Shown here in pieces: positions 1,516-64,000 of a DNA stretch of 64,000 nucleotides (positions within the stretch are counted from its first letter, which is position 1; every line of letters begins with the position of its first letter). Below the pieces are notes generated by a model that searched no databases, was not told the DNA's origin, and saw nothing but the letters and a program-made list of their open reading frames with translations. Origin of the DNA: Roseibium sp. MMSF_3544. Lineage in GTDB: Bacteria; Pseudomonadota; Alphaproteobacteria; Rhizobiales; Stappiaceae. The stretch covers positions 124,001-188,000 of the forward strand of contig NZ_JASHKA010000004.1 in assembly GCF_030732845.1 (NCBI RefSeq). The letters are read 5' to 3'. Both the position numbers and the translations under genes were made by a program.

Positions 1516-1516
1516 C

Positions 1517-4554: not shown

Positions 4555-4588
4555 TTTGAAACACCCGAAGCAGGAAACACGTTGATCT

Positions 4589-4759: not shown

Positions 4760-5464
4760 ATGTCCGATGAAGAAGATATCGATCTCGCGTCGCTATCCGA
4801 CGATGAACTTGTCGAGCAAATGCATGACGACCTTTACGATGGTCTTCAGGAAGAGATCGAGGAAGCCGTCAACATTCTTCTGGAGCGCGGCTGGGTACCT
4901 TACGACATCCTGACCAAGGCCCTCGTGGAGGGCATGCGCATTGTCGGAATCGATTTCCGTGATGGCATCCTGTTCGTTCCGGAAGTGCTCCTGTCCGCGA
5001 ACGCCATGAAGGCCGGCATGCACATCCTGCGTCCGCTGCTTGCCGAAACCGGCGCACCGAAGGTCGGCAAGATGGTCATCGGCACGGTCAAGGGCGACAT
5101 TCACGACATCGGTAAGAACCTTGTTTCCATGATGATGGAAGGCGCAGGCTTCGAAGTCATCGACATCGGCATCAACAACCCGGTCGAGAACTATCTGGCC
5201 GCCCTGGAAGAACACCAGCCGGAAATCCTCGGCATGTCCGCGCTTTTGACCACCACGATGCCCTACATGAAAGTGGTCATCGACGAGATGAAGGCAAAGG
5301 GCATTCGCGACGACTACATCGTGCTCGTTGGCGGCGCGCCGCTCAACGAAGAGTTCGGCGAAGCTGTCGGCGCGGACGGGTATTGCCGTGACGCTGCCGT
5401 TGCCGTGGAAATGGCGAAGGACCTGATCGCCCGCCGCCACAACCAACTCGCCTCAAAAGGCTGA
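4760..5464 (+). CDS. Corrinoid methyl-carrier protein (MtgC/MtbC type)
   Basis: A cobalamin-binding shuttle that accepts a methyl group from a substrate methyltransferase and hands it to the methyl-THF-forming enzyme. The 234-residue product has the usual two parts: an N-terminal four-helix cap (about 10-95) and a Rossmann-like B12 domain (about 100-225). The cobalt-ligand motif DxHxxG is seen as GDIHDIGKN, with Asp113, His115 and Gly118; the SALLTTTMPYM and VLVGGAPL segments are the other B12-domain signatures. I use the ATG at 4760, preceded by GGAG at a 6-nt gap, rather than the upstream TTG. It is the first gene of a tight module with DUF1638, a MetF-like reductase and a pterin methyltransferase. 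The substrate-specific methyltransferase partner is not in the window. Confidence 0.92.
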   Translation: MSDEEDIDLASLSDDELVEQMHDDLYDGLQEEIEEAVNILLERGWVPYDILTKALVEGMRIVGIDFRDGILFVPEVLLSANAMKAGMHILRPLLAETGAPKVGKMVIGTVKGDIHDIGKNLVSMMMEGAGFEVIDIGINNPVENYLAALEEHQPEILGMSALLTTTMPYMKVVIDEMKAKGIRDDYIVLVGGAPLNEEFGEAVGADGYCRDAAVAVEMAKDLIARRHNQLASKG

Positions 5465-5489
5465 GGCGGTGTTTGAAGGGGCTGCCGAT

Positions 5490-6137
5490 ATGCGGGTGGT
5501 CGAGCCTCTTTTTCCGATCGAAACCGATGAGGACGCGAACGACAAGATCGGCCGCGTCCTTGTTATTGCCTGCGGAGCGCTTGCCCGCGAGATCATCGCC
5601 ATACGCGATCTGAACGGTCTCGATCATATCGACCTCACCTGCCTGCCCGCGCAATTGCACAACACACCCGACAAGATCCCCGAGGAAGTCCGCCGCGCCA
5701 TCCTCCTGAACCAGGACGTTTATTCCGAGATCCTGATCGGCTACGGCGATTGCGGCACGGGTGGTCTGCTGGACAGGGTGCTGGATGAAACCGGCACAAA
5801 GCGCATCGCAGGCGCGCATTGTTACGCCTTCTTTTCAGGCCTGGACGAGTTCGACAAGATCGCGGAGGAAGAACTCGGCACGTTCTACCTGACCGACTTT
5901 CTTGCCCGCCATTTCCAGACCATGGTCATCGAACCGCTCGGGCTCGACTGGCACCCGCACCTGAGGGACATGTATTTCGCTCACTACAAGCGCTTGGTTT
6001 ACCTCGCCCAAACCGACGATCCGGCGCTGGAAGAGGCTGCGCGTGCTGCCGCGGAACGGCTTGAACTTACATTTGAAATCCGCCGCACGGGCTACGGCAT
6101 GCTCTCGACATTTCTTGGCGGCGGGGACGCACCTTGA
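5490..6137 (+). CDS. DUF1638 family protein
   Basis: A 215-residue DUF1638 protein. Members of this family are repeatedly found next to corrinoid methyl-transfer proteins, and no reaction has been firmly assigned. Visible signatures are VLVIACGALAREI near the N-terminus, a YGDCGTGG turn, the C-terminal-half segment GLDWHPHLRDMYFAHY and a conserved cysteine pair (ACG, DCG). The ATG at 5490 is favoured over a GTG at 5469 because GAAGGGG lies 8 nt before it. It starts 25 bp after the corrinoid carrier. An accessory or maturation role for the corrinoid protein is inference from position alone. Confidence 0.85.
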   Translation: MRVVEPLFPIETDEDANDKIGRVLVIACGALAREIIAIRDLNGLDHIDLTCLPAQLHNTPDKIPEEVRRAILLNQDVYSEILIGYGDCGTGGLLDRVLDETGTKRIAGAHCYAFFSGLDEFDKIAEEELGTFYLTDFLARHFQTMVIEPLGLDWHPHLRDMYFAHYKRLVYLAQTDDPALEEAARAAAERLELTFEIRRTGYGMLSTFLGGGDAP

Positions 6138-6240
6138 AACCGTCTCTTGATAAGTCGGTTTTTCACGCGCTCATGCCGCTATCAGGCGACCTGAAATTGG
6201 ATACTTCCGGCAAACATGCTCTCAAAGGGAAATCGAGAGA

Positions 6241-6543
6241 ATGGCGCAGAAAATCATAGTCTACTGGCGGGATATTCCGGCTCAGATCCTGGTGAAAAAG
6301 GGACGCAAGTCCGCACGCCGGGAGTTGCCGCCCATGTTCATGGAGGCGATCGATGCCTGTGCCATGCGTGTCGGCGCGAAAGACAGCGAGGCCTACATGG
6401 CCGAATGGCGCCGCACCGACCCCATCGATGTCTCGGACGACCTTGAAACCGAAGCGGAAGCGGCCCTGAGCGAGTTGCTTGCAGCCTATCCGAAAGACCG
6501 TTTGAAAACCCTGCTCGCAAGTGGAGGCACGGAGAATGACTGA
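6241..6543 (+). CDS. Small 'virulence factor' domain protein (PF13769 type)
   Basis: A 100-residue protein of the family named 'virulence factor' in databases; the name is historical and the role here is unknown. Recognisable parts are the start IIVYWRDIPAQILVKKG, the conserved LPPMFMEAIDACAM helix and EWRRTDP. It sits inside the corrinoid C1 module, and its last 8 bp overlap the start of the MetF-like reductase, implying translational coupling. About 100 bp separate it from DUF1638. Cytoplasmic: no signal or membrane segment is seen. A function linked to methyl-group oxidation is likely by context only. Confidence 0.8.
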   Translation: MAQKIIVYWRDIPAQILVKKGRKSARRELPPMFMEAIDACAMRVGAKDSEAYMAEWRRTDPIDVSDDLETEAEAALSELLAAYPKDRLKTLLASGGTEND

Positions 6544-7426
6544 ACAGCGCCTTTTGGCCAATGGGCGCCTGGCCGCCTCCACCGAAATGTCGCCGAAGCA
6601 GGTGGTCGAAAAGACTGAACTGCTGGCGAACATTCCCGCCGGCACACAAGTTTACGTGACGGATCTCGGCAACGCGTCGGAAGACACGATCGTTGAGGCC
6701 GCGCGCACGTTGACGGACCGGAACCTGGTCGCCGTCCCGCACATGGCGGCTCGCCGCTATCCCTCGCTGGAGGCCTTCGAGCGCCGGATCACGCGCCTGA
6801 CCCAGGAAGGCGGAGCCACAGAGGTGCTGGCGATTGCTGGTGAAGCTGAAAAAGCCGGACCGCTGACATCTTCGGTCGCGCTTTTGGAAACCGGCCTCTT
6901 TGACAAGCTCGGCATCACAAAGATCGCTGTTGCCGGTCATCCGGAAGGCGCGCCTGACATTCAGCCCGAAGTGATCAAATCCTTCCTCCTGCGCAAGCAC
7001 GAACTGGCCGCTCAAAGCGACGCCGAGTTCCGGATTGTCACCCAGTTCGGTTTCGATCCTCACCGGGTCAGCCTCTGGCTCGACGAATTGCGCGAATGGG
7101 GCAACACCTTCCCCGTGCATATCGGCGTCGCAGGCCCTGCCAAGATGACAACACTGTTGAAATACGCGGCGTTTGCCGGTGTTGAAAACTCGCTGAACTT
7201 CCTGAAAAAGCGCGGCGGCGCTGTGGTTTCCATGCTATCGGGCTACGATCCGAACACCATGGTTGAACCGTTGGAGACACGCGTGACCAGCCAGCCGGGA
7301 ACGCAGCTCGAACAGATCCACGTCTATCCCTTCGGCGGGATCCAGAAGACCGCTGACTGGCTGCACGGCCGCAGGAGCTGGTCCTTTCAACCCTCATCAT
7401 CCATGACTGCCAACGAGAGCGCATAA
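6536..7426 (+). CDS. Methylenetetrahydrofolate reductase-like protein
   Basis: MetF-like flavoprotein of 296 residues, a normal length for the family. In this setting it would oxidise methyl-THF to methylene-THF, the reverse of its biosynthetic direction. Seen in the sequence: a TIM-barrel start VTDLGNASEDTIVEAA, the NLVAVPHMAARRY segment (NLIPHLTA region of MetF), the VLAIAGEAEKAG strand, AGHPEGAPD and the folate-site segment HIGVAGPAKMTTLL. The start at 6536 overlaps the preceding stop by 8 bp and the TAA at 7424-7426 abuts the next ATG, so it is translationally coupled on both sides. The active-site variation from classic MetF is notable and typical of this clade. Confidence 0.85.
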   Translation: MTEQRLLANGRLAASTEMSPKQVVEKTELLANIPAGTQVYVTDLGNASEDTIVEAARTLTDRNLVAVPHMAARRYPSLEAFERRITRLTQEGGATEVLAIAGEAEKAGPLTSSVALLETGLFDKLGITKIAVAGHPEGAPDIQPEVIKSFLLRKHELAAQSDAEFRIVTQFGFDPHRVSLWLDELREWGNTFPVHIGVAGPAKMTTLLKYAAFAGVENSLNFLKKRGGAVVSMLSGYDPNTMVEPLETRVTSQPGTQLEQIHVYPFGGIQKTADWLHGRRSWSFQPSSSMTANESA

Positions 7427-8383
7427 ATGACACGCACAGTCGTCGCATCCGCCACCAAGGAAATCGTTATCGGTTTCGACCAACCGTTCTGTGTCATTGG
7501 CGAGAGGATCAACCCAACCGGCCGCAAGAAGCTGGCGGCCGAGATGGTTGAAGGCAATTTTGAAACCGTCAAGGCGGATGCGTTGGCGCAGGTCGCCGCC
7601 GGCGCCACGATGCTGGATGTCAACGCCGGGGTGACCGCGGTCAATCCGAATGAAACCGAACCACCGCTCCTGGTCAAAACTCTTGAGATTGTTCAAGAAC
7701 TTACAGACATTCCCTTGTCTATTGATTCATCTGTCACGGAAGCTATCAAGGCAGGCCTTGAGGCCACCAAGGGGCGCCCGCTGGTCAATTCAGTGACCGG
7801 TGAAGAAGAGAAGCTTGAGGCGATCCTGCCGCTGATCAAGAAATACGATGTTCCGGTCGTTGCAATTTCAAACGACGAAACCGGCATTTCCGAAGATCCG
7901 GATGTGCGGTTTGAGGTCGCCAAAAAAATTGTCGAGCGTGCAGCCGACCACGGCATCCCTCCACACGACATTGTCGTTGACCCGCTGGTGATGCCAATCG
8001 GCGCCATGGGAACGGCCGGTCTCCAGGTGTTCAGACTGGTGCGCCGTCTGCGTGACGAGCTGAAAGTCAACACGACCTGCGGTCTTTCCAATGTCTCGTT
8101 CGGCCTGCCGCATCGTCACGGCATCAACGCCGGGTTCATTCCGATGGTGATCGGCGCCGGTATGACGTCGGCGATCATGAACCCGTGCCGTCCGCAGGAA
8201 ATGGAAGCCGTGCGTGCCGCCAACGTTCTGAATGGCACCGACCCGAACTGCCAGGAATGGATCATGACCTATCGCGATCATCAGCCCGCAGCAGCTGGCG
8301 CGGCAGCCGCTCCGGCAGAAGGTGCAGCCGGTTCCGGCGGGCGTCGCAGGGGCGGTCGTGCTGCACGGAGATCTGCGGGCTGA
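7427..8383 (+). CDS. Methyltetrahydrofolate:corrinoid methyltransferase (MtgA/AcsE-like)
   Basis: Pterin-binding TIM-barrel enzyme that transfers methyl between the corrinoid protein and tetrahydrofolate. The 318-residue product shows the pterin-binding motifs: VIGERINPTGRKK at about 22-34, MLDVNAG near 65, PLSIDSS near 97, LVNSVTG near 116, VVAISND and the NTTCGLSNVSFGLP loop near 215. The C-terminal 35 residues are an Ala/Gly/Arg tail (GGRRRGGRAARRSAG) not needed for the fold. It starts immediately after the MetF-like gene and is followed by a terminator. It would form methyl-THF in a pathway running from a methylated substrate to formate or CO2. Confidence 0.92.
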   Translation: MTRTVVASATKEIVIGFDQPFCVIGERINPTGRKKLAAEMVEGNFETVKADALAQVAAGATMLDVNAGVTAVNPNETEPPLLVKTLEIVQELTDIPLSIDSSVTEAIKAGLEATKGRPLVNSVTGEEEKLEAILPLIKKYDVPVVAISNDETGISEDPDVRFEVAKKIVERAADHGIPPHDIVVDPLVMPIGAMGTAGLQVFRLVRRLRDELKVNTTCGLSNVSFGLPHRHGINAGFIPMVIGAGMTSAIMNPCRPQEMEAVRAANVLNGTDPNCQEWIMTYRDHQPAAAGAAAAPAEGAAGSGGRRRGGRAARRSAG

Positions 8384-8439
8384 CCTACGAGCTGTTGCCA
8401 TAGCTTTCCAGCACTAAGGGCTCGCAAGAACATCCAGGT

Positions 8440-40683: not shown

Positions 40684-42423
40684 TCACCCCTGGACCAATT
40701 CAAAACCCGGGATATTGCCGCGCATGATCGTCTCATGCCCATCTAGCCGATCCAGTGCTTCCAGTCCCTGCCGGGCATCCTTTGACGATCCCCAGTCCCG
40801 ATCCAGGTCGGGCCAGGGGATGGAGGCAATCAGGAGTTGGGTATAGGCATGTTCGGGGTCGCCAATGACGTCTTTTGGAGGTCCAGCCTCGACAATGTGG
40901 CCCTTGTACAGGACCATCACATAATCGGAGACATGAAAGGCCGTGGCGAGGTCGTGGGTGATGTACAGGATGGAAATTCCATGCCGGTCCTTCAGGTCAT
41001 GGATATTCTTCAAGATCGTTGCCCGCAAACTCGCATCCACCATGGAAACAGGCTCATCCGCAATCAGGAGCTTGGGACTGAGCATCAGCGCCCGGGCCAC
41101 GATCAGCCGCTGCCGTTGACCACCGGAAAGTTGATGCGGATAGCGGCCCAGCACCGTTTCTGGAGCAAGGCCGACGGCGCGGCAGGCCTCTACCATCGCA
41201 GTCTGGGTATGATCCGGGCCTTCGCTGAGACCGAACCGTTCAAACGGATACTTGAGCGCATGATTGACCCGGTAAAACGGATTGAAGCAGGCATAAGGGT
41301 CTTGGAATACAGCCTGAACCTCTTTCCGGAACGATAGGGCCTCCGCGCCCGACTGACGGTTGATGTCCCGGCCCTTGAACCGCACCTCGCCGGTCGACGG
41401 GGCGTTAAACCCCAGCATGAGGCTACCCAATGTCGATTTGCCCGAACCGGACTGCCCGACAATCGAAATGATTTTCGGCACCTCGCCGTCGAGCGTGAAA
41501 TTCATGGGATGGAGGGCTGTGACAGCGCCATAATGCTTGGACACCTGCCGGAGCTCCAGCAGCGGCTCTCCGTTTTCTGACCGGAAACCGGTAGCGGTTT
41601 CTTCACCGGCGGGTTCAAGGAAGCTTTTGCCGCCCACCAGCGGCACGGAGGATATGAGTTCCTTCGTGTAGGGGTGTTCGGGACGCTCAATGATCTGCCG
41701 GACAGGCCCAAATTCAACCAGCTGGCCTTTTTTCAACACGGCGATTTCGTCGACCGACTGCGCCATCAGCCCCATGTCATGGCCAATGAGGATCAGCCCG
41801 GCACCGATCTCGCTCTGGACATCGCGCAGTGTCTGCATGACGTGCCGTTGCGTGATGACGTCCAGCGCCGATGTCGGCTCGTCCGCAATGATGAGATCCG
41901 GATTGAGGCAGACCCCGATCGCGATGCAGACCCTCTGCTTCATGCCACCGGACAGCTCATGCGGATAAAGGTCGCCGACGACTTCGGGGTCGAGCCCGAC
42001 GCCCGCCAGTGCCGCATCGGACCGGCTTTGCAAGTCTCCTTGTGGCAGCGCGCCCTCATGCGCGACGATCCCGTCCCAGATCTGGTGCGCGATCCGCATG
42101 ACCGGATTCAAGGAGTTCATCGCGCCTTGAGGGATATAGCTGATCCTTGATAGACGGACCTGGCGCATATCATCGTCGCTCAGGTCGAGGAGATTTGGTT
42201 TCTCCAGCGAATTGAGCAGGATTTCACCGCCAGCGACAAAGCCGGGCGATGCCAGCATCCGCATCGCGGACAGCGCCGTTGTCGTCTTGCCAGACCCGCT
42301 TTCTCCGATGAAGCCGACACGCCGGCCTTTGCCAACCGATAGCGAGACGTCGGTAACCGCATGCACGACGCCTTTGGAGGTCGGGAAGTCTATGGACACA
42401 TTGCGCAGATCAAGAACGGTCAT
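40684..42423 (-). CDS. ABC transporter ATPase, two fused domains (DppD-DppF/GsiA type)
   Basis: Energises the importer encoded upstream. The 579-residue protein contains two ABC domains in one chain. Domain 1 (about 1-260) has Walker A GESGSGKTT at 40-48 and signature LSGGMKQRVCIAIG; domain 2 (about 285-560) has Walker A GQSGSGKST near 322-330 and signature LSGGQRQRLIVARAL. Each has the Walker B and switch region (LIIADEPTSALD, LLIADEPVSMVD; the second has MVD instead of the usual ALD). Spacing to the permease gene is 3 bp. The type is used for oligopeptides and also for oligosaccharides and glycosides. Confidence 0.95.
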   Translation of the reverse strand: MTVLDLRNVSIDFPTSKGVVHAVTDVSLSVGKGRRVGFIGESGSGKTTTALSAMRMLASPGFVAGGEILLNSLEKPNLLDLSDDDMRQVRLSRISYIPQGAMNSLNPVMRIAHQIWDGIVAHEGALPQGDLQSRSDAALAGVGLDPEVVGDLYPHELSGGMKQRVCIAIGVCLNPDLIIADEPTSALDVITQRHVMQTLRDVQSEIGAGLILIGHDMGLMAQSVDEIAVLKKGQLVEFGPVRQIIERPEHPYTKELISSVPLVGGKSFLEPAGEETATGFRSENGEPLLELRQVSKHYGAVTALHPMNFTLDGEVPKIISIVGQSGSGKSTLGSLMLGFNAPSTGEVRFKGRDINRQSGAEALSFRKEVQAVFQDPYACFNPFYRVNHALKYPFERFGLSEGPDHTQTAMVEACRAVGLAPETVLGRYPHQLSGGQRQRLIVARALMLSPKLLIADEPVSMVDASLRATILKNIHDLKDRHGISILYITHDLATAFHVSDYVMVLYKGHIVEAGPPKDVIGDPEHAYTQLLIASIPWPDLDRDWGSSKDARQGLEALDRLDGHETIMRGNIPGFELVQG

Positions 42424-42426
42424 GGT

Positions 42427-43377
42427 CTATAGCCTCCTCAAACGCGGGTTCGAGACCTCGTCCAGCCCGAGGTTCACCAGCAACAGCCCGATGAACATCA
42501 CGGCCAGCAGCAGCGTCGGGATGCCCCACCACCACCAGAGATTTTGAATAAGCGCACCGGAGTTGATGGCGTCGTAAATTACGCGGCCAAGCGTGGGCAC
42601 GCGCTGTGGACCGAGACCCAGAACCTCCAGCCCTACTGCGGTGACGATGGATGTGGTCACGTTCGCAATGAACGACCCGAAAAGGTAGGGCACCAGATTG
42701 GGCAGCATCTCCCGGAACATGATGTGCCAGGTGGATGCACCGGACAACCGGGCCATCTGCACATACCCGGATTCCCGCATCGACAGAACTTGCGCCCGAA
42801 TAAGTCGGGTGGGCGATTGCCAGACGAAACAGGCGATCAGGATCGCCATGACCGTCAAGGAGATATCACCATAAGCGGCTTGAAAGACCACCAGGATCAG
42901 CAGCGGCGGAATGGTGATCATCACGTCCGATCCGACGCGGATGACATCGTCCAACCGTCCGCGGATGAACCCCGCAGAAAAGCCGAGGAAGATGCCGATC
43001 GACATGCCGATAAGCGAGGCAAGCATCCCGACATAAAGAGAGTTCGGCGCACCGACAATCAGCAGCGCCAGAATGTCCTTTCCGGTGACGTCCGTCCCAA
43101 GCGGATGGGCCCATGTGCCCACCTGCCCCCGCAGGTTTTCCACGCCGACCGGTCCCTGGCGGGGAATTCCAGATCCAGTGAACACCATATCGGTGTCCCA
43201 CAACATCCGGCCGACCACCCCCAGCGCAATGATGCCCAACAGCATGGACAGTCCCCAAATCAGCTTCGGGTTTTGCCAGGGATTGTCGAACCGCTTCATG
43301 CGGCGGATTTGCGCCCGGGTCAGGCCTTTGACGTCGGCTTCGGCGGTTTCGGGCTTGGTGGCGTTTTCATCAGTCAT
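42427..43377 (-). CDS. ABC transporter permease (DppC/OppC type)
   Basis: Inner-membrane permease of 316 residues with about six transmembrane helices. The N-terminal cytoplasmic stretch (LTRAQIRRMKRFDNPWQNPK) is polar, as usual for the OppC class, followed by the first helix near 40-60. The GTDVTGKDILALLIVGAPNS segment near 95 and the EAA-loop RAQVLSMRESGYVQMARLSGA, near 195-215, that contacts the ATPase are both visible. It is packed 4 bp after the DppB-type permease and 3 bp before the ATPase. No odd features. Confidence 0.93.
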   Translation of the reverse strand: MTDENATKPETAEADVKGLTRAQIRRMKRFDNPWQNPKLIWGLSMLLGIIALGVVGRMLWDTDMVFTGSGIPRQGPVGVENLRGQVGTWAHPLGTDVTGKDILALLIVGAPNSLYVGMLASLIGMSIGIFLGFSAGFIRGRLDDVIRVGSDVMITIPPLLILVVFQAAYGDISLTVMAILIACFVWQSPTRLIRAQVLSMRESGYVQMARLSGASTWHIMFREMLPNLVPYLFGSFIANVTTSIVTAVGLEVLGLGPQRVPTLGRVIYDAINSGALIQNLWWWWGIPTLLLAVMFIGLLLVNLGLDEVSNPRLRRL

Positions 43378-43381
43378 CGGC

Positions 43382-44389
43382 TCAGCCCCCGTGCCGGATG
43401 CGTGGATCGATCAGCGGATAGATGAGGTCGACGAGAAAGACCGCAATAGCTGTCATGAGAATGATCACGAAGCTCACACCCTGGATCACGGGATAGTCCT
43501 GGGTCAGGATCGCATCGTAGAGAAGCTTTCCCATGCCCGGATAGGCAAAGATCCGCTCCACCAGCACCTGCCCCGCCACGAGGAGCCCGATTTTCAGGGC
43601 AAACGCCGTGATCTGGGGCAGAATCGCATTGCGGATCATGTAGCGGTAGAGAATGTAGCGGGGCTTCAGGCCCTTCGCCTTGGCAAGCGTTGTGTAATCC
43701 TCGCCTTGCACGGTGATCATCAGTCCGCGCATACCCAAGGCCCAGAAGCCGAAGGTCACAACGACGATGCTCATCGCCGGCAGGAAGCCGTGATAAAGTA
43801 CCGAGTTGATGAACGCGAACGTCCAACCCGGCTCCACATTCAGCCCATAGGGACCGGATAGCGGCAACCACCGGAGCTGCGTTGAAAACACATACATCAA
43901 CAGCAGCCCCGACAGGATCGGCGGGATCGAGGTGAACACCATGGCTGCGGGTATGGCGACTTTCCAGAGCCTGGGTGTGTGCTCCCAGACCATCAAGGCG
44001 CCGAGAAGATTGCCAATAACGAAGGTGATAATAAGCGAAATGAACATCAGCCCAAGGGTCCACGGCAAAGCGTAGCCGATCATGCTGGAAACCGGGGTCG
44101 GGAAGCTGGCCGTGGAGAGCCCGAAATCCAGGGTGAAACTGTTCACGATGTAGAGGAAGTACTGAACGATCAATGGCTGATCGAGGCCGAAGCTTTCGCG
44201 CAGCTGCTGCAGGATCGCCTCGGAGTTTTCGATTGTGCCACCGCCAGCCGCCATCCGGCCGAGCATCACATCAATTGGGTCAATCGGGCTCAGCCGCGGA
44301 ATAATCCAAATCAGCGTCGCCGCCACAAACACGGTCAAAAACAGCGTGAAAACGCGGTTCGTCAGATACGACAGCGGGATACGTCCCAT
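43382..44389 (-). CDS. ABC transporter permease (DppB/OppB type)
   Basis: Inner-membrane permease of 335 residues with six predicted transmembrane helices. It shows the OppB start (LTNRVFTLFLTVFVAATLIW), an extended periplasmic part after the first helix (LSPIDPIDVMLGRMAAGGGT) and the EAA-loop region YTTLAKAKGLKPRYILYRYM near 230. Ends with the helix FVIILMTAIAVFLVDLIYPL. It starts 67 bp after the PhyH dioxygenase and 5 bp before the DppC-type permease. Substrate class must be read from the operon, not from this protein. Confidence 0.93.
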   Translation of the reverse strand: MGRIPLSYLTNRVFTLFLTVFVAATLIWIIPRLSPIDPIDVMLGRMAAGGGTIENSEAILQQLRESFGLDQPLIVQYFLYIVNSFTLDFGLSTASFPTPVSSMIGYALPWTLGLMFISLIITFVIGNLLGALMVWEHTPRLWKVAIPAAMVFTSIPPILSGLLLMYVFSTQLRWLPLSGPYGLNVEPGWTFAFINSVLYHGFLPAMSIVVVTFGFWALGMRGLMITVQGEDYTTLAKAKGLKPRYILYRYMIRNAILPQITAFALKIGLLVAGQVLVERIFAYPGMGKLLYDAILTQDYPVIQGVSFVIILMTAIAVFLVDLIYPLIDPRIRHGG

Positions 44390-55953: not shown

Positions 55954-57168
55954 TCAGCCCCAAGCGGGAAAGGGATCTTCGAGCTTACGGTGGGCTTTGG
56001 AGACGCCCGTGATGGCACTGCCATGAAGACAGGCATCAAGCGCGTTCCGAATTGCCTGCTCATCCATGTCCGCTCCACCGATAAAGACGAGTTCCTGTCT
56101 ACGGTCTCCCCAGGTCGAATTCCAGAATTTGCGAACAAACGCAACTGATTCTGGATCTTGCGGCCAGCGCTCCTTCGGGACCGCCGCCCACCATCGCCCA
56201 AGACCCTCGGTACGCGTCACGGTGCCAGCAATGGAGAGTTCGCCGAGCCAGTCCGGGCGCGTTGCAATCCAGAAGTGGCCCTTTGCCCTGAAGACGCCCT
56301 TGAAACCCTCGTTGAGCAAGGCGTGCAGTTTCACGGGATGAAAGGGACGGCGCGCGCGATAGACAAAGGAACGGACGCCATATTCCTCGGTTTCGGGCGT
56401 GTGGTCCTCGTACTCGTAGAGTTCCTTGAGCCACAATGGATGAGATTGCGCGCGCTCTTCGCTGTAGAGACCGGTGTCGAGAATGGCATCGAGCGGTGCA
56501 CGACTGAAATCCGTTTCGACAATGCGTGCGTCCGCGTTCAGGCCGCGGATGACGCGAAGAACTTCGTCGCGCTGTTCGGCTGTAACGTCGCTGATCTTGT
56601 TGACGACAACGACATCGGCAAACTCGATCTGTTCAACAAGGAGGTCAACCAGAGTTCTGTCATCGGTGTCGCCGGCGGTTTCGCCGCGATCCCGCAGGAA
56701 ATCCCGCGAACCGTAGTCCTTGAGAAGGTTGATCGCGTCGACAACAGTGACCATCGCATCCAGTCGCGCGAAGTCCGACAAGGAGTGATCTTCTTCGTCC
56801 CGGAAATCGAATGTGGCAGCAACCGGAAGCGGCTCTGAAATTCCGGTGCTTTCGATCAGGAGATAGTCAAAACGTTTTTCGTCGGCGAGACGTTGCACTT
56901 CTTCGAGCAGATCATCGCGCAGTGTGCAGCAGATGCAGCCATTGGTCATTTCCACCAGCTTTTCATCCGTACGCGACAAGCCTGCGCCGCCGTCGCGCAC
57001 GAGATCGGCGTCGATGTTCACTTCGGACATGTCATTGACAATAACGGCCACTTTTCGACCTTCGCGATTGTTCAGGACGTGATTGAGCAGGGTTGTCTTG
57101 CCGGCACCGAGAAAGCCGGAGAGAACGGCGACGGGAAGACGTTGGTCGGAACCGGAAGAGATGGACAT
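55954..57168 (-). CDS. CobW/COG0523-family GTPase, likely zinc chaperone
   Basis: A 404-residue G3E GTPase that loads metal into client proteins. Walker A is [18 protein letters not shown] near residues 15-32; the metal-binding CxCC motif is [19 protein letters not shown] near 72; the guanine specificity motif is VVVNKISDV near 183; [12 protein letters not shown] is the switch region. The C-terminal CobW_C domain (about 260-395) is complete. The ATG at 57168 follows a Zur-box-like dyad at 57187-57205, so zinc starvation control is likely. A cobalamin role is less likely despite the riboswitch 650 bp away, because that faces the other way. Confidence 0.92.
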
Positions 57169-57186
57169 GAGATGGCACTTCTGAGT

Positions 57187-57565: not shown

Positions 57566-57822
57566 GCCGGCCTGGTATCTGACGATGGTGATTTCCACAA
57601 CTTCAGCGGTCGCTCAGGGGCCTTTAACGCTGAACGGCGCTCAGTTTTTGCCGTCAACTACGGGCGACCTCAGGCAACCGCGAGGCTTATGCTTTGGGGA
57701 TCAATCGGCACAAATCAACTCTCAGGATCGCCTGCGGAAACCCGTGCCTTTCCGGTCACTGCACCGACAGATCGTCGGACTGTGCCGGTTGACTTCAGGC
57801 ATCAAAGACGCTTCAACATTCG

Positions 57823-58020
57823 TGATGGTTCTCATGTGCCAAGCGATGCACGCGAGATGAAAAGGGAACACGGTCAGGTGTAGCCAACAGGCGCCAAACC
57901 CGTGACTGCCCCCGCAACTGTAGGCGGAGAGCGAACCTGATAGAGACCACTGGGCCGGCAACAGCCACGTGCCCGGGAAGGTTCAGGAAAGCTTCGACCC
58001 GCGAGTCAGGAGACCTGCCA
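57823..58020 (+). ncRNA. Cobalamin (AdoCbl) riboswitch
   Basis: The canonical elements appear in order: GGTTCTCATGTGCC (start of P2/P3), AAAAGGGAACACGGT, CCGTGACTGCCCCCGCAACTG (part at 57900-57920), CACTGGG and CCGGGAAGGTTCAGG, and the B12 box GAGTCAGGAGACCTGCC ending at 58019. It precedes a DUF1636/ABC importer operon on the same strand. Bound cobalamin is expected to lower expression. Confidence 0.95.
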
Positions 58021-58035
58021 TCAATCCATGCAACG

Positions 58036-58059
58036 CTCGGGCGGGGTGCCCCGAGGAGG
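58036..58059 (+). promoter_or_regulatory. Riboswitch expression-platform hairpin overlapping a Shine-Dalgarno
   Basis: CTCGGG (58036-58041) pairs with CCCGAG (58050-58055). Its 3' arm overlaps the start of the ribosome site GAGGAGG (58053-58059), which is ideally placed for an ATG at 58067. This suggests translational control by the riboswitch. Confidence 0.6.
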
Positions 58060-58066
58060 TTAGGTA

Positions 58067-58222
58067 ATGACGACAAGACTTAATCAGGCTTCGGCGGCCT
58101 GTTCCTTTGCCGTTTTGTATCTGCCCCTTTGGCATGCCGTCCTTTCAACGGAAAGAACGGCTGATGCTGGAAGGCGACAGGGCAATTCTCTCGGTATGTA
58201 CACGGTGTCGGGTCCCGGGTGA
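58067..58222 (+). CDS. Putative 51-codon ORF directly behind the riboswitch
   Basis: The best ribosome site of the operon (GAGGAGG, 7-nt gap) serves this ATG, not that of DUF1636. The frame encodes a 51-residue product, MTTRLNQASAACSFAVLYLP and onward to SVSGPG-like end, then TGA at 58220-58222. It overlaps the first 59 bp of the DUF1636 gene in another frame. It could be a coupling leader peptide, or the stump of a lost small gene such as a cobalt-transport subunit (cbtB-like genes often start this way). It has no recognisable domain. Confidence 0.35.
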   Translation: MTTRLNQASAACSFAVLYLPLWHAVLSTERTADAGRRQGNSLGMYTVSGPG

Positions 58223-58610
58223 CGGCTGCGCGCTTGAAGAGCGGCCAGGTTACCGCCTGGCGCAGCGCATAAAGACGCAGTTTTCCAAAAGCGACGCGGC
58301 AAGGCTTGGCGTCGAGCTTCGCGGTGTGCGTTGCATGAGCCAATGCAAACGCCATTGTGTCGTCGCGTTGTCCGGCACCGGCAAATTCACTCTCGTATTT
58401 GGCGATTTGGACGCATCCACTGATGCGGATGCGATCTTGCAGCTCGCGGCGCAATACGCGGTGGCCCCTGACGGGCAGATTGAGCGGCCGGACAGGCCCG
58501 AACCCCTGCGTGCCGGCATCTTGGGCCGCATCCCGCCACTCGCCTTTGACGGCGAGCAGATCGACACGACTTTCACCATAAAACCAACTGATTGCGAGGA
58601 GGTCCTCTAA
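58164..58610 (+). CDS. DUF1636 family, predicted metal/[2Fe-2S]-binding protein
   Basis: A 148-residue DUF1636 protein, a family linked to cobalamin riboswitches and resembling thioredoxin-like ferredoxins. Cysteines match that idea: SVCTRCRVPGDGCALE near residues 10-25 (C-x2-C ... C) and GVRCMSQCKRHCVVALSG near 53-70 (C-x3-C-x3-C). It ends with PPLAFDGEQIDTTFT. It shares one base with the binding-protein gene (TAATG). The start at 58164 is preferred because upstream codons lie in the leader ORF. A role in cobalt or corrin handling is inferred from the riboswitch. Confidence 0.85.
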   Translation: MLEGDRAILSVCTRCRVPGDGCALEERPGYRLAQRIKTQFSKSDAARLGVELRGVRCMSQCKRHCVVALSGTGKFTLVFGDLDASTDADAILQLAAQYAVAPDGQIERPDRPEPLRAGILGRIPPLAFDGEQIDTTFTIKPTDCEEVL

Positions 58611-60121
58611 TGCTCCCATTTTCCTTACGCAGACCCGTCAAACAGGTCCTGCACAGCGCTGCCCTCGGCGCCATGATGGCCCTGCCCCTGGCGATGGGCC
58701 CGGCTCAGGCTGACAGCGTGACCGTCGGCCAGACCTTCCTGGCCTCCGGCCTTGATCCGGCTGAAGGGTCAACCGGCTGGGCGCTTGTCACACACGGGAT
58801 CGGAGAACAGCTTTTCCAGGTCTCGCGCACAGGCGAAGTCGTTCCGAACCTGGCGTCTTCGGCAAACTTCAATGCAGATGGCACCTGGACCGTTGAACTT
58901 GCACCCGATCGTTTCTTTTCCGATGGCACACCCGTCAGCGCCGAGCTTGTTGCAGCCGCGCTCAACAGGACGGGTGAGGCCAACCCATCCGCGCGAGCCA
59001 CAGCAGGGCGGTTGACGTTTGAAGCCATTGATTCAGATACGCTCAAGGTTTCCACCGAAGAACCGACGACCATCCTGCCTTCGATCCTCGCGGAATGGGC
59101 CTTCCCGGTTTACATGGAAACCGACTCCGCACCGATCTTTACCGGTCCCTTTGCAGTGACCGACTTTCAGGCGGGCTCACAGATCAGCATGACGCCGAAC
59201 ACGTTTTATACAGACGCTGACAAACGGCCTGACGTGGTGCTACGCCGGATCGCAGACGGCCAGTCTCTGGCTCTGGCGTTTGCCTCTGGCGAGCTGGACC
59301 TTGCCTTCAATCTGCCCGTGGAATCGCTCTCCATGTTCGACGGCACCCGGGGCGAGGCAGTCAAATCGTTTCCGGTTGCCTACCAGTACATGATGTGGAT
59401 GAACACGCGTCATCCGGCACTTGAGGACGTGCGAGTGCGCAAGGCTATCGATCTGGCGGTCAACCGAGACGATCTGGTCGCGGCAGCTCGCGCCGGAAAA
59501 CCGGCAACCGGCGCATTTGCGAGCAGCTACCCCTTCGCAGCGAACGGCCCACTCACAGAGGATCTGGAAGCAGCCAATGCGTTACTTGACGAAGCAGGCT
59601 GGGTGAAGGGCGAAGATGGAGTGCGCTCCAAGGACGGTAAACGTCTTGAGCTTGTGCTATGGGCCTATCCACAACGTCCGGACCTCGTCACCTTTCAACC
59701 GGTTGTCCGAGCAGCTCTCGCCGAACTCGGCGTCAGCGTGACTACGCAGGTTACAGAAAGCCCCAGCCAGGTGGCCGGCGAAGGCGGCTTTGACCTGTTC
59801 CTATGGGCGCAGCATACTGCACCGGCAGGTGATCCCGGTCTGTTTCTCTCGCTCTTTTTTGAAACCGATGCCGCACGCAATTACTCCGGCTGGTCAAACC
59901 CGGACTACGACGCACTGATTTCAGAGCTGCGCGCCGAAGGCGATCCGGAGGCACGCATCACACTTGCTCAAAAAGCACAGGAGATGATTGCCGAACATGC
60001 GCCTGTCTCGTTCCTCGTGACGCCTGAATGGCATGTCGGCGTCTCCAAGCGTGTTTCCGGATATGAACCGTGGGGGTCGGACTACTACGTTCTGCGTCCC
60101 GACTTCATGCTGACGCAATGA
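58610..60121 (+). CDS. ABC substrate-binding protein, peptide/nickel class (SBP_bac_5), B12-regulated
   Basis: Periplasmic receptor of 503 residues with a signal peptide (LGAMMALPLAMGPAQAD). Family signs: TWTVELAPDRFFSDGTPVSA near 95, IFTGPFAVTDFQAGSQISM near 178, VRVRKAIDLAVNRDDLVAAA near 280 and ADYDAL-like NPDYDALISELRAEG near 430. The class binds oligopeptides, heme or nickel chelates. Placement behind a cobalamin riboswitch suggests cobalt, a cobalt chelate or a corrinoid. The initiator ATG overlaps the DUF1636 stop by one base. Two permease genes follow, but no ATPase. Confidence 0.9.
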   Translation: MLPFSLRRPVKQVLHSAALGAMMALPLAMGPAQADSVTVGQTFLASGLDPAEGSTGWALVTHGIGEQLFQVSRTGEVVPNLASSANFNADGTWTVELAPDRFFSDGTPVSAELVAAALNRTGEANPSARATAGRLTFEAIDSDTLKVSTEEPTTILPSILAEWAFPVYMETDSAPIFTGPFAVTDFQAGSQISMTPNTFYTDADKRPDVVLRRIADGQSLALAFASGELDLAFNLPVESLSMFDGTRGEAVKSFPVAYQYMMWMNTRHPALEDVRVRKAIDLAVNRDDLVAAARAGKPATGAFASSYPFAANGPLTEDLEAANALLDEAGWVKGEDGVRSKDGKRLELVLWAYPQRPDLVTFQPVVRAALAELGVSVTTQVTESPSQVAGEGGFDLFLWAQHTAPAGDPGLFLSLFFETDAARNYSGWSNPDYDALISELRAEGDPEARITLAQKAQEMIAEHAPVSFLVTPEWHVGVSKRVSGYEPWGSDYYVLRPDFMLTQ

Positions 60122-60140
60122 CGGCTTTGAGGTCCGCGTA

Positions 60141-61103
60141 ATGAACTGGTTCGCGGCGACACGATTTGCAGTCCTGCCGGTTGCGTCTCTTGGCGCGTCC
60201 TGGATTGCGGTGGTTGCCGTGAGCTTTCTTCTGATCAGGCTGGTTCCGGGCGACCCGGTCGAGATCTTCATCAATCATATGAACGTTCGTGCAACGGATG
60301 AACTCATCGCGGCCTACCGGGCTGAATGGGGTCTCGACCGAAGTCTCTTTGCGCAGTTTGCGATCTGGCTTCAGGGCTTTATCACCCTTGACTGGGGGCA
60401 GTCCTTTGTGACCGGACAGGCCGTCACGGCCGAGCTCTTTCCGCGTGTCGGCTGGTCCGCGGCCATTGGTCTTGCCGGTTTTGCAAGCGCTATTCTTGTC
60501 GGCTCCGGAATAGGCTTTCTGGCGGCGTTGCAGCCGGGCGGTCTCGCCGACCGACTATCGCGCCTGTTCGCGATTGGCGGTCAGGCACTGCCTGCCTTTG
60601 CCGTAGGGCTGATCGCCTTGTGGATCCTTGCTGCCGAACTCCAATGGATCCGGCCATTTTCAGGAGGTGTGGTGGAGCGCCTCCTTTTGCCGATTGCGCT
60701 TGTCGCGTTTTTTTCCATTGGCAGCGTCTCCCGCCTGGTCAGGGCCGGTTTCAGCGAGGTATGCAACGCGCCCTATATGCGCACGGCGCTGGCAAAGGGA
60801 CTGGGCCGCGGCAAGGCCCTCTGGCGGCACGGCCGCCGCCATGCGGCCATTGTCTTGCTTGCCGGCATCGCTCCCGACCTGGCGTGGATCATCGGTGGAA
60901 CGGCGGTCGCAGAGATCGTTTTCGGCGTGCCGGGATTGTCGGAACGCATTGTTGCCGCGGTCGCTGAGCGCGACTATCCGGTGCTTCAGCCTTACATTGC
61001 CCTGATCGCCTTGTGGCTGGTGCTTGGTTTGCGCCTGATCGCAGTTCTTCGACGGTCGCTCGATCCACGTGTCGATCTCGGTTTGGAGGTAGGTCATGGC
61101 TGA
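60141..61103 (+). CDS. ABC permease (DppB/NikB type)
   Basis: Inner-membrane permease of 320 residues, with about six helices. The OppB/NikB layout is seen: helix SWIAVVAVSFLLIRLVPGDP at the N-terminus, LDRSLFAQFAIWLQGFITLD near 75, the ATPase-contact loop APYMRTALAKGLGRGKALWR near 210 and the C-terminal helix LIALWLVLGLRLIAVL. It starts 19 bp after the binding-protein gene and overlaps the next permease by 8 bp. The EAA-type loop is intact, so it should need an ATPase, which the operon does not encode. Confidence 0.92.
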   Translation: MNWFAATRFAVLPVASLGASWIAVVAVSFLLIRLVPGDPVEIFINHMNVRATDELIAAYRAEWGLDRSLFAQFAIWLQGFITLDWGQSFVTGQAVTAELFPRVGWSAAIGLAGFASAILVGSGIGFLAALQPGGLADRLSRLFAIGGQALPAFAVGLIALWILAAELQWIRPFSGGVVERLLLPIALVAFFSIGSVSRLVRAGFSEVCNAPYMRTALAKGLGRGKALWRHGRRHAAIVLLAGIAPDLAWIIGGTAVAEIVFGVPGLSERIVAAVAERDYPVLQPYIALIALWLVLGLRLIAVLRRSLDPRVDLGLEVGHG

Positions 61104-61881
61104 CGTCGGCACATTGGCCCTACGCATCTTCATGTTGGTCGTGCTTCTGTTCATCGCCATCGGGTTTTTCTGGCAACCGCATGATCCCCATGCTGTCGAT
61201 CTGAGCCAGTCGCTAGAAGCGCCCTCGTTGGTCCATTGGCTCGGAACGGATCATTTGGGCCGGGACCTTGCGTCCAGACTGATCGTGGGTGCGCAGAGTT
61301 CTGTCCTCGCGATCGCAATCGTCCTCGTTTCGAGCATCGGGATCGGCATCATGGCTGGGGCTGCCATTGCAATCGGACCGGGAAGCGTCTCCGTCATCTT
61401 GCGGTGGTTGGCCGAAACCGTTCTGACGATCCCAACATTTGTACTTGCCCTGGTGCTGGCCGCCTTGTTCGGTGCCGGACTGATGGCGATCGCAGCCGCT
61501 CTCATCGTGGTCACCTGGGCACCCTATGCCTTGAGCCTCGCCGCGCTCTTTGATCGGCTGCGGGCGGAACAATACTGGCAGGCCAGCCTCGCGATGGGGT
61601 CCGGATTGCCGGGTGCGCTTCACAGACACCTGCTTCCGAACACGCTGCCCGTGCTCGGCGCGCTTGCTGGTGCAGATGCCGGCCGGGCCGTCATCCTTGT
61701 TGCGTCTCTTGGGTTTCTGGGACTGTCCGCCGACACGGGGCATCCGGAGTGGGGAGCGATGATCCACGAGTACCGAATGTTCCTGTTCTCCGAGCCGCGG
61801 CTCATTCTTGCGCCGGTCTTCGCGACAACCGTCTTGGCTTTCCTCTTGAATCAGGTTCTCGATAGGAACGCAGATGTTTGA
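61096..61881 (+). CDS. ABC permease (DppC/NikC type)
   Basis: Inner-membrane permease of 261 residues. It begins with a single helix (LRIFMLVVLLFIAIGFFW), then the family segment HWLGTDHLGRDLASRLIVGA near 50-70, about five more helices and the contact loop LRAEQYWQASLAMGSGLPGA near 155-175. It overlaps the preceding permease by 8 bp (ATGGCTGA region). The length is on the short side of NikC-like proteins. The next gene, 18 bp later, encodes a BtuF-like protein rather than an ATPase. Confidence 0.92.
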   Translation: MADVGTLALRIFMLVVLLFIAIGFFWQPHDPHAVDLSQSLEAPSLVHWLGTDHLGRDLASRLIVGAQSSVLAIAIVLVSSIGIGIMAGAAIAIGPGSVSVILRWLAETVLTIPTFVLALVLAALFGAGLMAIAAALIVVTWAPYALSLAALFDRLRAEQYWQASLAMGSGLPGALHRHLLPNTLPVLGALAGADAGRAVILVASLGFLGLSADTGHPEWGAMIHEYRMFLFSEPRLILAPVFATTVLAFLLNQVLDRNADV

Positions 61882-61899
61882 AGGGAGATAGGCAAAGTC

Positions 61900-62691
61900 A
61901 TGAAGACATTTCCGCCTGAACGCATTGTCTGCCTAACGGAAGAGACAGTCGAGACAATCTACCTGCTTGGCGAAGAAGACCGGATCGTTGGCGTCTCAGG
62001 CTATGCGGTGCGGCCGGCGCGCGTGCGACGTGAAAAGCCGAGGGTTTCGGCCTTCACATCAGCTGATATCCCAAAGATCCTCGCCCTGGAGCCCGACCTC
62101 GTTCTGACTTTTTCCGATTTGCAGGCCGACATCGCAGCCGAACTGATCCGAGCAGGGGTTGCTGTCGTTGCCTACAATCAGCGCGACATTGCTGGCATCC
62201 TCGCCATGATCCGGCACCTTGGAGCGACCATTGGCCAGGCAGCAAAAGCCGATGCTCTGGCCAGCCAGTATGAAGCGCGGTTGGCACAGGTCGCGGCAAA
62301 CGCTGAAGGCCAGCCGCGTCCGGTTGTCTATTTCGAAGAATGGGATGATCCGATGATCTCAGGCATCAAGTGGGTGTCTGAACTGATTGAGGTCGCCGGT
62401 GGCCGCGAGGCTTTTCCGAAACAGGCAGAAAGCGGTGGTGCACGCGACCGGATTGTTTCGTCGGACGAGGTCATCGCCGCCGCGCCGGAGGTCATCATCG
62501 CATCCTGGTGCGGCAAGAAGGTACGCCCTGAGAAGATTGCAGCGCGCCCTGGCTGGGACACAATACCCGCAGTCCGCGATGGCCATATTGTCGAGATCAA
62601 ATCGCCCCTTATCTTACAACCCGGCCCTGCGGCCTTGACGGATGGTCTTGATGCCATTCTTGCAGCGCTAAATCACGATCAGAAGGTCTAA
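61900..62691 (+). CDS. BtuF-like cobalamin/metal-chelate-binding protein without signal peptide
   Basis: A 263-residue protein with the Peripla_BP_2 (BtuF/FepB) fold: PPERIVCLTEETVETIYLLG at the start, ADIPKILALEPDLVLTFSDL near 57-75, VVYFEEWDDPMISGIKWVSE near 150 and PEVIIASWCGKKVRPEKIAA near 203. A signal peptide is absent; residue 1 begins directly with the mature fold, so it should be cytoplasmic. A role in holding imported corrinoid or chelate is inferred from riboswitch control. GGGAGA lies before the ATG. It is separated from the DUF1289 gene by 2 bp. Confidence 0.88.
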   Translation: MKTFPPERIVCLTEETVETIYLLGEEDRIVGVSGYAVRPARVRREKPRVSAFTSADIPKILALEPDLVLTFSDLQADIAAELIRAGVAVVAYNQRDIAGILAMIRHLGATIGQAAKADALASQYEARLAQVAANAEGQPRPVVYFEEWDDPMISGIKWVSELIEVAGGREAFPKQAESGGARDRIVSSDEVIAAAPEVIIASWCGKKVRPEKIAARPGWDTIPAVRDGHIVEIKSPLILQPGPAALTDGLDAILAALNHDQKV

Positions 62692-62693
62692 AC

Positions 62694-63578
62694 ATGAGCA
62701 TGGTCAGCCCCTGTGTCGGTACCTGCAAACTCGATGAGGCAACCGGGTTTTGCATAGGCTGTGCCAGAACCGGAGACGAGATCGCTGTTTGGGGCGGTGA
62801 AACAGATGCCTGGCGCGCTGACATCTGGGACGCACTCCCTGAACGCTTTGATAGCCTTGGCGTCGCCTGCCGACGTTTACCCTGGGACACAGACGAGATA
62901 CGCGCTTTTGTCGTAAGAAGCCTGCAGGAGAACCAGGGAACCTGGGTCGCAGGTGTTGTCGGCGCGGTCGGTGAGTTCACCGCAGCTCCGGGAAACAAGG
63001 TCCATGTCGACTTTGAGGGAGATATCATCGTTGCGACCACGCCGGGCGCAAGGCTCAGGTTTCACATCGATGACCATGTGCGCGCCTTGACGTTTGATCC
63101 CAAAGTGACCCCAACCAGGGAGATGCGGGTGATGCTTTCCGTCAAACGGGAACGCGGGCGCCCAGAGGTTGCCCACGTGCTCTCGCCGCTTGGGAAAGAT
63201 TGCTCCGCAATCGCGGCCGCGGACTGGGACGCAACCTTGTTCGACCTTGGTCTTGGACGCAAAGAAGCACGCTTTTGCGTTCGAACCGGACCCGGCCCGC
63301 TAAACGATGCGCTTGTGCGTGCAGACGGGACGGCTTTTCCCGACAACCTGCCAAAGATCGGACCTGCCTTGCTCGAAGCGAGCCCGGCCCGTGTGATCGA
63401 AACGGCCCTTGGCCGCATCGAAGTCATGACTCCGATCCCTGCTCCAACCGGAAAGTCCCCTCTCGGTCCCCACACGCATCTTTTGCCGGACCATCTTGCC
63501 TCGGGACGCGCAACACCGGCCGGCATGGACCTCCCCCGCGCCTATCTTCCAGGTGCGATCTTTTATCCGGCAGCTTGA
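62694..63578 (+). CDS. DUF1289-domain protein with long C-terminal domain (DUF6925-like)
   Basis: A 294-residue protein. Residues about 5-50 are a DUF1289 domain with the cysteine set CVGTCKLDEATGFCIGCART (Cys7, Cys11, Cys20, Cys23), a small metal-binding-like fold. Residues about 85-290 form a second domain (FTAAPGNKVHVDFEGDIIVA, RFHIDDHVRALTF and HTHLLPDHLASGRATP); its histidines near the end are conspicuous. I recall a DUF6925 label for such domains but am not certain. It ends the riboswitch operon, starting 2 bp after the BtuF-like gene. Metal handling is inferred. It overlaps the convergent gene by 16 bp. Confidence 0.75.
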   Translation: MSMVSPCVGTCKLDEATGFCIGCARTGDEIAVWGGETDAWRADIWDALPERFDSLGVACRRLPWDTDEIRAFVVRSLQENQGTWVAGVVGAVGEFTAAPGNKVHVDFEGDIIVATTPGARLRFHIDDHVRALTFDPKVTPTREMRVMLSVKRERGRPEVAHVLSPLGKDCSAIAAADWDATLFDLGLGRKEARFCVRTGPGPLNDALVRADGTAFPDNLPKIGPALLEASPARVIETALGRIEVMTPIPAPTGKSPLGPHTHLLPDHLASGRATPAGMDLPRAYLPGAIFYPAA

Positions 63579-64000
63579 CGTTTCGAAGGGGCGATGCCAG
63601 CCAGGGCGCCAAGGCCGTAAAGAGCACCGAACGTCGCGAAGGCGAGCGCATTCGTCCAGCCGATCTGCCAAATGACCGGCAGAGAAAAAGCAGAAGGATG
63701 TGACGGCAACAGCCAGCTCGCCGCGTAAACGACTGCTTGTTGCGCAAGAAGCGCTGCGGCAAACGCAATCAATGCAACGGCTACAAACAAATGCCCCGCA
63801 AACTGCCTTTGGCTAAACAGCGCTGCCATCACGGCAGCAACAGCCGAAAAGCCGAGCACAGCACCCCAAGCAAGCGTTGCCATATCTGTCGGATAACCGA
63901 GCACGCCAAAGCCGATGACCTGATTGACCAACCAGCCGAGGATGGCCGTGACAAGTGCTTCTCTCCAGGGAAGAACAAGCGCAGCGAGCGCGCCGATTGC
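63563..64000 (-). CDS. Integral membrane protein, N-terminus beyond the window
   Basis: The frame is open to the right edge, so the true start is outside; the visible part reads AIGALAALVLPWREALVTAI onward for 145 residues. At least four transmembrane helices are visible (about the LVLPW region, TLAWGAVLGFSAVAAVMAAL, GHLFVAVALIAFAAALLAQQ, WTNALAFATFGALYGLGALA). I do not recognise the family. It is convergent with the DUF1289 gene, with 16 bp of overlap, so it closes the riboswitch operon. A transport role is possible but unsupported. Confidence 0.7.
   Translation of the reverse strand, partial: AIGALAALVLPWREALVTAILGWLVNQVIGFGVLGYPTDMATLAWGAVLGFSAVAAVMAALFSQRQFAGHLFVAVALIAFAAALLAQQAVVYAASWLLPSHPSAFSLPVIWQIGWTNALAFATFGALYGLGALAGIAPSKRQAAG

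Follow-up and report, generated by a model that had tools for sequence, protein, structure and literature searches.

A cobalamin-riboswitch operon of Alphaproteobacteria encodes a nickel/oligopeptide-type importer without an ATPase gene, whose motor is probably shared with other systems

The closest described relatives of the system considered here each combine some of its features. NikABCDE importers with B12 riboswitches are described in two Firmicutes, the cobalt importer CbtJKL of Sinorhizobium meliloti stands under an adenosylcobalamin riboswitch (PMC7689651), and in Bacillus and Streptococcus, sugar importers without an ATPase are energised by MsmX and MsmK (PMC7658222). Here, we consider an operon at the end of a 64,000-nucleotide stretch of Roseibium sp. 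MMSF_3544 (the window; positions 124,001 to 188,000 of the forward strand of contig NZ_JASHKA010000004.1, assembly GCF_030732845.1). Its source genome of 6.88 Mb in 62 contigs is labelled G000; other genomes likewise carry G labels, and loci or stretches L labels. On balance, the operon probably encodes a type I importer of the nickel/oligopeptide family that depends on a binding protein and is repressed by B12. This importer would have lost its linked ATPase genes, be driven by an Opp/Dpp-type ATPase from elsewhere and carry cobalt or a cobalt chelate. A literature search recognised no description of this importer, which is weak evidence, with the subscription literature mostly not covered.

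The operon is headed by a cobalamin (adenosylcobalamin, AdoCbl) riboswitch aptamer of family RF00174 at 57810-58036 on the plus strand, which matches the whole model (1-189) with 121.9 bits (E 4.4e-30) against a gathering score of 31.5 bits. An earlier sequence-only reading of the window had recognised this riboswitch, with a start at 57823 that is 13 bases late, and had named the tightly spaced genes behind it on the same strand; Pfam matches and the spacing, with overlaps of at most 8 bases and gaps of at most 19 bases, confirm both. A DUF1636 protein (58164-58610; PF07845, 106.5 bits, cut-off 31.6) is followed by a NikA-like substrate-binding protein (SBP) of the SBP_bac_5 family (58610-60121; 206.8 bits) with a Sec-like signal recognised by eye, a NikB/DppB-like permease, PermB (60141-61103; 95.3 bits), and a NikC/DppC-like permease, PermC (61096-61881; 66.4 bits). 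Both permeases belong to BPD_transp_1 and have kept the EAA loop, and together with the SBP they are the parts of a type I ATP-binding cassette (ABC) importer. Two accessory genes follow, one for a putatively cytoplasmic BtuF-like Peripla_BP_2 protein in which no signal peptide is seen by eye (61900-62691; 147.1 bits) and one for a DUF1289-DUF6925 protein (62694-63578; 60.5 and 161.6 bits). The closest NCBIfam models of the SBP, PermB and PermC are all of nickel transport, with every score under the curated cut-off: Opp5A_nikA for the SBP (260.9 bits, cut-off 600), Opp2B for PermB (219.8 bits, cut-off 350) and Opp2C for PermC (180.8 bits, cut-off 300). The best PDB sequence match of the SBP is the nickel-binding protein 3t66 (E 4.9e-45).

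It is evident that no ABC ATPase gene precedes the end of the operon, as had been claimed. The operon is terminated by a convergent membrane-protein-like gene outside the system (63563-64000, minus strand, continuing to about 64102 past the window), the in-window part of which has no Pfam match. Within the 15 kb stretch L004 of G000, no ABC ATPase was found on the operon strand, and the sole match lies 6.9 kb downstream of PermC on the opposite strand. Moreover, the absence extends beyond this genome. The SBP-PermB-PermC set was found at 18 loci, all in Alphaproteobacteria and in several families, and a six-frame ABC ATPase scan found an in-line ATPase at none of 17 loci; with L180, which is without any ABC match, the count becomes 0 of 18. 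Downstream DNA is short in G375 (1,075 bases) and G454 (209 bases). ABC ATPases do occur elsewhere in 7 of the 17 stretches: on the opposite strand in those of G000, Shinella, R. rhizoryzae and G453, about 11 kb upstream in those of Ahrensia and Neorhizobium, and, in Paracoccus aminophilus, on the same strand upstream of the riboswitch, within a complete Dpp operon that has its own permeases. RF00174 exceeds its gathering score at 14 of the 18 loci, or 15 when a partial match in G318 is counted (29.6 bits, below the gathering score and truncated at the contig end).

These loci were gathered by several searches. In the window organism's family, 4 of 87 genomes, its own included, have a PermB homologue of at least 60% identity, and a single-protein scan of GTDB species genomes, which reaches close relatives only, found a Cohaesibacteraceae metagenome-assembled genome (71%) and Ahrensia marina (65%). 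Three distant loci of that scan, at 27-34%, were kept out of the 18, namely L059 (33%), a Dpp-like set with its own ATPase, and L058 (34%) and L060 (27%). An SBP profile matched in 9 of 385 genomes of a class-wide sample, including G000 and the exception G402, and in 1 of 398 genomes of a phylum-wide sample, the window's own (E 1e-90); the G402 match (39% to the Shinella SBP) was dropped, this SBP lying behind a full Dpp operon with ATPases. Plasmid records hold the importer in Neorhizobium, Shinella, Rhizobium and Paracoccus at 47-50%, with 5 of the 8 alphaproteobacterial matches included and H3, H5 and H7 left out.

In a midpoint-rooted tree of PermB and PermC with 32 rows, all 17 of the ATPase-less loci included fall on one side of a branch (support 85/93, present in 83% of 200 bootstrap trees). 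Fusobacterium and Aerococcus join this clade at 100/100, and their operons each hold two ATPase genes; five rows of the tree were flagged for odd letter composition, both of these sisters among them. Since the ATPase-less loci form one clade and its sisters bear ATPases, a single old loss of the linked ATPase genes is likely. Further, the ratio of nonsynonymous to synonymous substitution rates (dN/dS) between G000 and G057 is 0.054 for the SBP, 0.089 for PermB, 0.078 for PermC and 0.150 for DUF1636, and the module is therefore maintained by purifying selection.

How the importer could be energised is suggested by the permeases themselves. EAA loops dock the ATPase in type I importers (PMC7658222), and they are present in all 17 loci examined. 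Against a reference profile of ordinary Dpp-type permeases (29 rows for PermB and 41 for PermC, taken from four carrier genomes), the EAA loops of the ATPase-less clade score 0.93 (PermB) and 0.89 (PermC) bits per column, compared with 0.05 and 0.38 in the two ATPase-bearing sisters. Outside the loop, clade and sisters score 0.57 against 0.55 (PermB) and 0.45 against 0.58 (PermC). No sliding window clear of the loop reaches the loop's clade-sister difference (0 of 233 for PermB, 0 of 168 for PermC), and the biggest differences fall in windows that overlap it. The window of the loop proper takes rank 15 among 286 for PermB and rank 7 among 225 for PermC. Judged from their sequence, the Dpp-like loops are what would be expected if the permeases must fit a general Opp/Dpp-type ATPase. 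The borrowed ATPase proposed in the sequence-only reading is the best-fitting explanation.

The same reading had pointed to an unpaired DppD/DppF-type ATPase in the genome as the lender, which was not borne out. Dpp-type ATPases were inventoried in seven carriers, in stretches drawn by hand from match lists, and ATPases without the searched domains could escape; every stretch with at least two ATPase domains was checked for both permease types. Among the matches listed, both types are present in 17 of 17 ATPase stretches of G000, 13 of 13 (14 pairs) of G057 and 9 of 9 of G059, as well as in 13 of 14 of G082, 6 of 7 of G087, 11 of 12 of G375 and 3 of 4 of G454. The four remaining stretches have no permease (G375, G454) or the C-type only (G082, G087), and those of G087 and G454 lie near a contig start. 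An orphan Dpp-type ATPase is thus excluded among the matches listed in G000, G057 and G059, and for these three genomes only. Given that all 17 listed pairs of G000 adjoin permeases, an orphan was rejected as donor, and the motor is therefore probably shared with other systems. In six carrier genomes, none of the listed matches reaches the NikD cut-off by itself; two fused ATPases of two domains exceed it only when the scores of both domains are added over the whole protein. The window itself also encodes, at about 40789-44014 on the minus strand and about 14 kb upstream of the riboswitch, a fused Dpp-type ATPase together with two permeases of its own.

Nor was a Dpp-type ATPase found behind another cobalamin riboswitch of the genome, the second place that had been proposed. 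G000 has three such riboswitches in all, of which the second leads DUF1636, FhuC/BtuD-like ATPase, Peripla_BP_2 and FecCD genes and the third leads cobW, cobN and cobQ, neither with a Dpp-type ATPase. Just upstream of the cobW-cobN riboswitch, the plus strand of L006 (G000:C55) encodes an MTTB-type methyltransferase and an isolated SBP_bac_5 protein at 2037-6442. The search was extended to 11 carriers, nine of which had matches (27 in total), and 18 stretches with 19 further riboswitches of nine carriers were scanned. Dpp-type ATPases were found only in G414 (L126 and L130, 217-303 bits), within two complete importers of SBP_bac_5 protein, permeases and ATPases, each led by a cobalamin riboswitch of its own; this genome also has an ATPase-less importer, at which a second SBP adjoins PermC. 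Five weaker ABC matches (78-117 bits) lie in L128, L129 and L133, that of L128 beside an ABC-3 type permease. Two stretches of 8.8-9.2 kb, in which an ABC ATPase match is absent, have a riboswitch followed by a solitary CbiM-like gene of PF01891: L131 of G057 (7297-7980, minus strand, 59.6 bits) and L132 of G087 (7743-8432, minus strand, 58.5 bits). By their sequence, these genes would be another cobalt importer without a nearby motor.

Several points weigh against the reading of a cobalt importer with a shared motor. The sisters in the EAA comparison are two sequences only, from other phyla and of odd letter composition, and since the EAA loop is a highly conserved part, the contrast may come partly from drift in these sisters. 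Moreover, no donor ATPase is singled out by EAA match and carrier distribution. The L101 group gives the best EAA match among the rankable systems of G000, G082 and G087 and is common to these three (56% in the PermB loop vs 22% elsewhere); as sole donor it was rejected, having no orthologue above 50% identity in G057, G375, G453, G215 and G454. L095, a group of Yej-like fused ATPases (781.8 bits with the YejF model, cut-off 834), has reciprocal best matches of 68-88% in five of the six other carriers, but it ranks no higher than second or third by EAA match, and so wide a distribution may be trivial. Systems with a PermB loop that was unaligned or not found could not be ranked, and these make up 3 of 17 in G000, 4 of 14 in G082 and 3 of 7 in G087, the L105 group included. 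No RF00174 match was obtained at the G375, G453 and G454 loci, and no cobalamin riboswitch was found anywhere in the genomes of G375 and G453. Finally, zinc-type genes stand near several importer loci. A further ATPase group, L097, has reciprocal best matches in all six other carriers at 44-72%. L101, which ranks first by EAA match, is missing from G057, a carrier with importer proteins 86-92% identical to those of G000, and the importer may draw on more than one ATPase.

As for the cargo, cobalt or a cobalt chelate appears likelier than a corrinoid, because the SBP is NikA-like, DUF1636 is found near CbtA and at the head of a CbtJKL-like operon, and four loci have a CbiX-ferredoxin fusion. 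The cobalamin riboswitch in front of the importer speaks for cobalt as well. Within the window organism's family, DUF1636 has 64 matches in 50 of 87 genomes and stands within 4 kb at 14 of the 28 CbtA loci over the cut-off. CbtA was not found in G000 or G057 and lies behind cobalamin riboswitches in G059 and G082. The second DUF1636 gene of G000, on C17, leads a CbtJKL-like set of ATPase, Peripla_BP_2 and FecCD genes, and in G318 and G454 the gene right behind PermC, in the same orientation, encodes CobW, a further pointer to cobalt. Histidines H62 and H402 of the SBP, kept in 10 of 10 rows, are possible metal ligands.

The gene that leads the importer is DUF1636 at 10 of 17 loci and the CbiX-ferredoxin fusion at 4 of 17, which makes the leader ferredoxin-like at 14 of 17; neither was found at the G454, G318 and G209 loci. 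The modelled fold of DUF1636 is that of a thioredoxin-like ferredoxin: the AlphaFold model (predicted local distance difference test, pLDDT, 87.4) is matched best in the PDB by 9jn8 (Rhodobacter capsulatus 'ORF378', 40% identity) and next by an Aquifex [2Fe-2S] ferredoxin, in line with a prediction of this fold from 2015 (PMC4520260). Cysteines C12, C15, C57, C61 and C65 are invariant in 11 of 11 rows, and DUF1636 is possibly a cobalt-handling protein or a redox partner. The fusion, of 264-273 residues at all four rhizobial and Paracoccus loci scanned, joins CbiX to a thioredoxin-like [2Fe-2S] ferredoxin. Compared as profiles, DUF1636 and the fusion did not match (probability 0.2%), and their common fold comes from the model-to-PDB match for the one and from sequence for the other. 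The CbiX half of the fusion (L061-L064, the gene before the SBP) reads AKSAFAA at a place where CbiX proteins carry a glycine-histidine motif; with this motif replaced, the CbiX half may bind rather than insert cobalt.

The operon could instead import a corrinoid, cobinamide or cobalamin, if the SBP had exchanged metal or peptide for corrinoid as its ligand and the BtuF-like protein received this ligand in the cytoplasm. The riboswitch in front and the BtuF-like gene within the operon speak for this; the NikA-like SBP, the CbiX fusion, the company of DUF1636 with CbtA and the presence of CobN, CobW and CobQ synthesis genes in G000 make it unlikely. Moreover, the BtuF-like and DUF1289-DUF6925 genes occur at just 2 of 13 ATPase-less loci searched; G453 has a weak 52-residue DUF1289 match on the opposite strand, and in G082 the two genes form their own riboswitch-led operon adjoining the importer. 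Of the corrinoid or cobalt-chelate importer put forward in the sequence-only reading, the cobalt part is the better supported of the two, and the dedicated cytoplasmic binding proteins attached to it lie outside the conserved module.

ZigA and CobW GTPases, GTP cyclohydrolase I and phosphoribosyl-AMP cyclohydrolase are marks of zinc-shortage islands, and the importer could carry zinc or mixed metals as part of such an island. A gene for a ZigA-like GTPase adjoins the operon (55954-57171, minus strand; 597.2 bits, cut-off 600), and elsewhere GTP cyclohydrolase I is encoded in L050 and L079, phosphoribosyl-AMP cyclohydrolase in L079 and L056, and CobW in L050, L056 and L079. CobW proteins couple cobalt and zinc handling in Cupriavidus (PMC11340326). 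A zinc cargo is nevertheless improbable against a cobalamin riboswitch on the importer itself at 15 of 18 loci, the CbiX fusion and the NikA-like SBP.

A transporter free of any ATPase would use the SBP and the two permeases as a gate, with capture on the ferredoxin of DUF1636 or the CbiX fusion pulling the metal in, and the ABC fold would have turned into a secondary or trapping transporter. Such a scheme fits the lack of an orphan Dpp-type ATPase among the matches listed in G000, the ferredoxin-like leader of most loci and the solitary CbiM-like genes of two carriers; it is quite improbable with EAA docking loops that are kept and still Dpp-like. That the set is a decaying, non-functional remnant after the loss of its ATPase genes, as their absence might suggest and in line with a Brucella ABC inventory that considered an importer of unstated type without a located ABC protein unlikely to function (PMC2821768), is very improbable given one clade with the same gene set at 18 loci in several alphaproteobacterial families, dN/dS of 0.05-0.15 (one pair) and the kept EAA loops.

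The leader of the window operon holds a likely expression platform at 58036-58059 on the plus strand, a hairpin CTCGGGCGGGGTGCCCCGAG (58036-58055) that runs into a GAGGAGG ribosome-binding site (58053-58059). Its CGGGGT columns do not vary among the 10 leaders aligned, apart from one inserted base in Paracoccus, and the hairpin loop presumably pairs with the aptamer (L5-L13). In RNA folding of 58014-58175, shuffled sequences did equally well. Directly behind the riboswitch, a frame of 51 codons (58067-58222, plus strand) that has a strong ribosome-binding site overlaps the DUF1636 start in another frame; G057 alone has it too, and it was left out of the system. The Shinella plasmid stretch L062 is a B12-shortage island, with three cobalamin riboswitches in 6 kb (1370-7018), before the importer, metE and nrdH-nrdI-nrdE. 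Beyond the convergent gene of G000 lie a threonyl-tRNA synthetase gene, a GcrA gene and a minus-strand nitrate-type ABC set, the last recognised by eye.

Overall, the importer that we favour would work as follows. When adenosylcobalamin is low, a riboswitch of this class would permit expression of the operon, and the NikA-like SBP would bind cobalt or a cobalt chelate in the periplasm. The PermB-PermC pair would take this cargo through the membrane, its kept EAA loops docking a general peptide-importer ATPase, for which the Yej-like fused type is a candidate donor. Inside, DUF1636, or the CbiX-ferredoxin fusion in rhizobia and Paracoccus, would pass the metal towards corrin. If this is true, a vitamin-sensing RNA toggles a cobalt 'front end' that is plugged into peptide-uptake motors, cobalt and B12 supply are tied to peptide-transport ATPases, and DUF1636 and the CbiX-ferredoxin fusion gain a testable place in cobalt uptake.

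Set beside the known systems, the importer is of the nickel/oligopeptide type and is not a NikABCDE member, since linked NikD and NikE were sought and found at none of the 18 loci. It shares with NikABCDE an SBP_bac_5 protein, two BPD_transp_1 permeases that best match Nik models and a B12 riboswitch, whereas its scores lie far under the NCBIfam equivalog cut-offs and it has DUF1636 or the CbiX-ferredoxin protein as partner. CbtJKL is likewise under an adenosylcobalamin riboswitch, and a like operon is led by the second DUF1636 gene of G000; however, CbtJKL comprises a BtuF-type SBP, a FecCD-type permease and its own ATPase, a set that G000 holds on C17 and that the window operon, with Nik/Dpp-type SBP and permeases and no ATPase, does not contain. 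The cobalt importers CbtAB and CbiMNQO are also under cobalamin-riboswitch control but belong to other membrane protein families (PF09490, PF01891) without binding-protein-dependent permeases. The importers served by MsmX and MsmK are, like this one, type I systems with operons lacking an ATPase gene and a motor in trans, which for the importer here would be the case; they differ in their sugar cargo and known orphan ATPase, whereas the present importer is of Nik/Opp type, from Alphaproteobacteria and with no orphan among the matches listed. If the proposed working is true, motor sharing, described for Gram-positive sugar importers (PMC7658222), extends to the nickel/oligopeptide family in Alphaproteobacteria.

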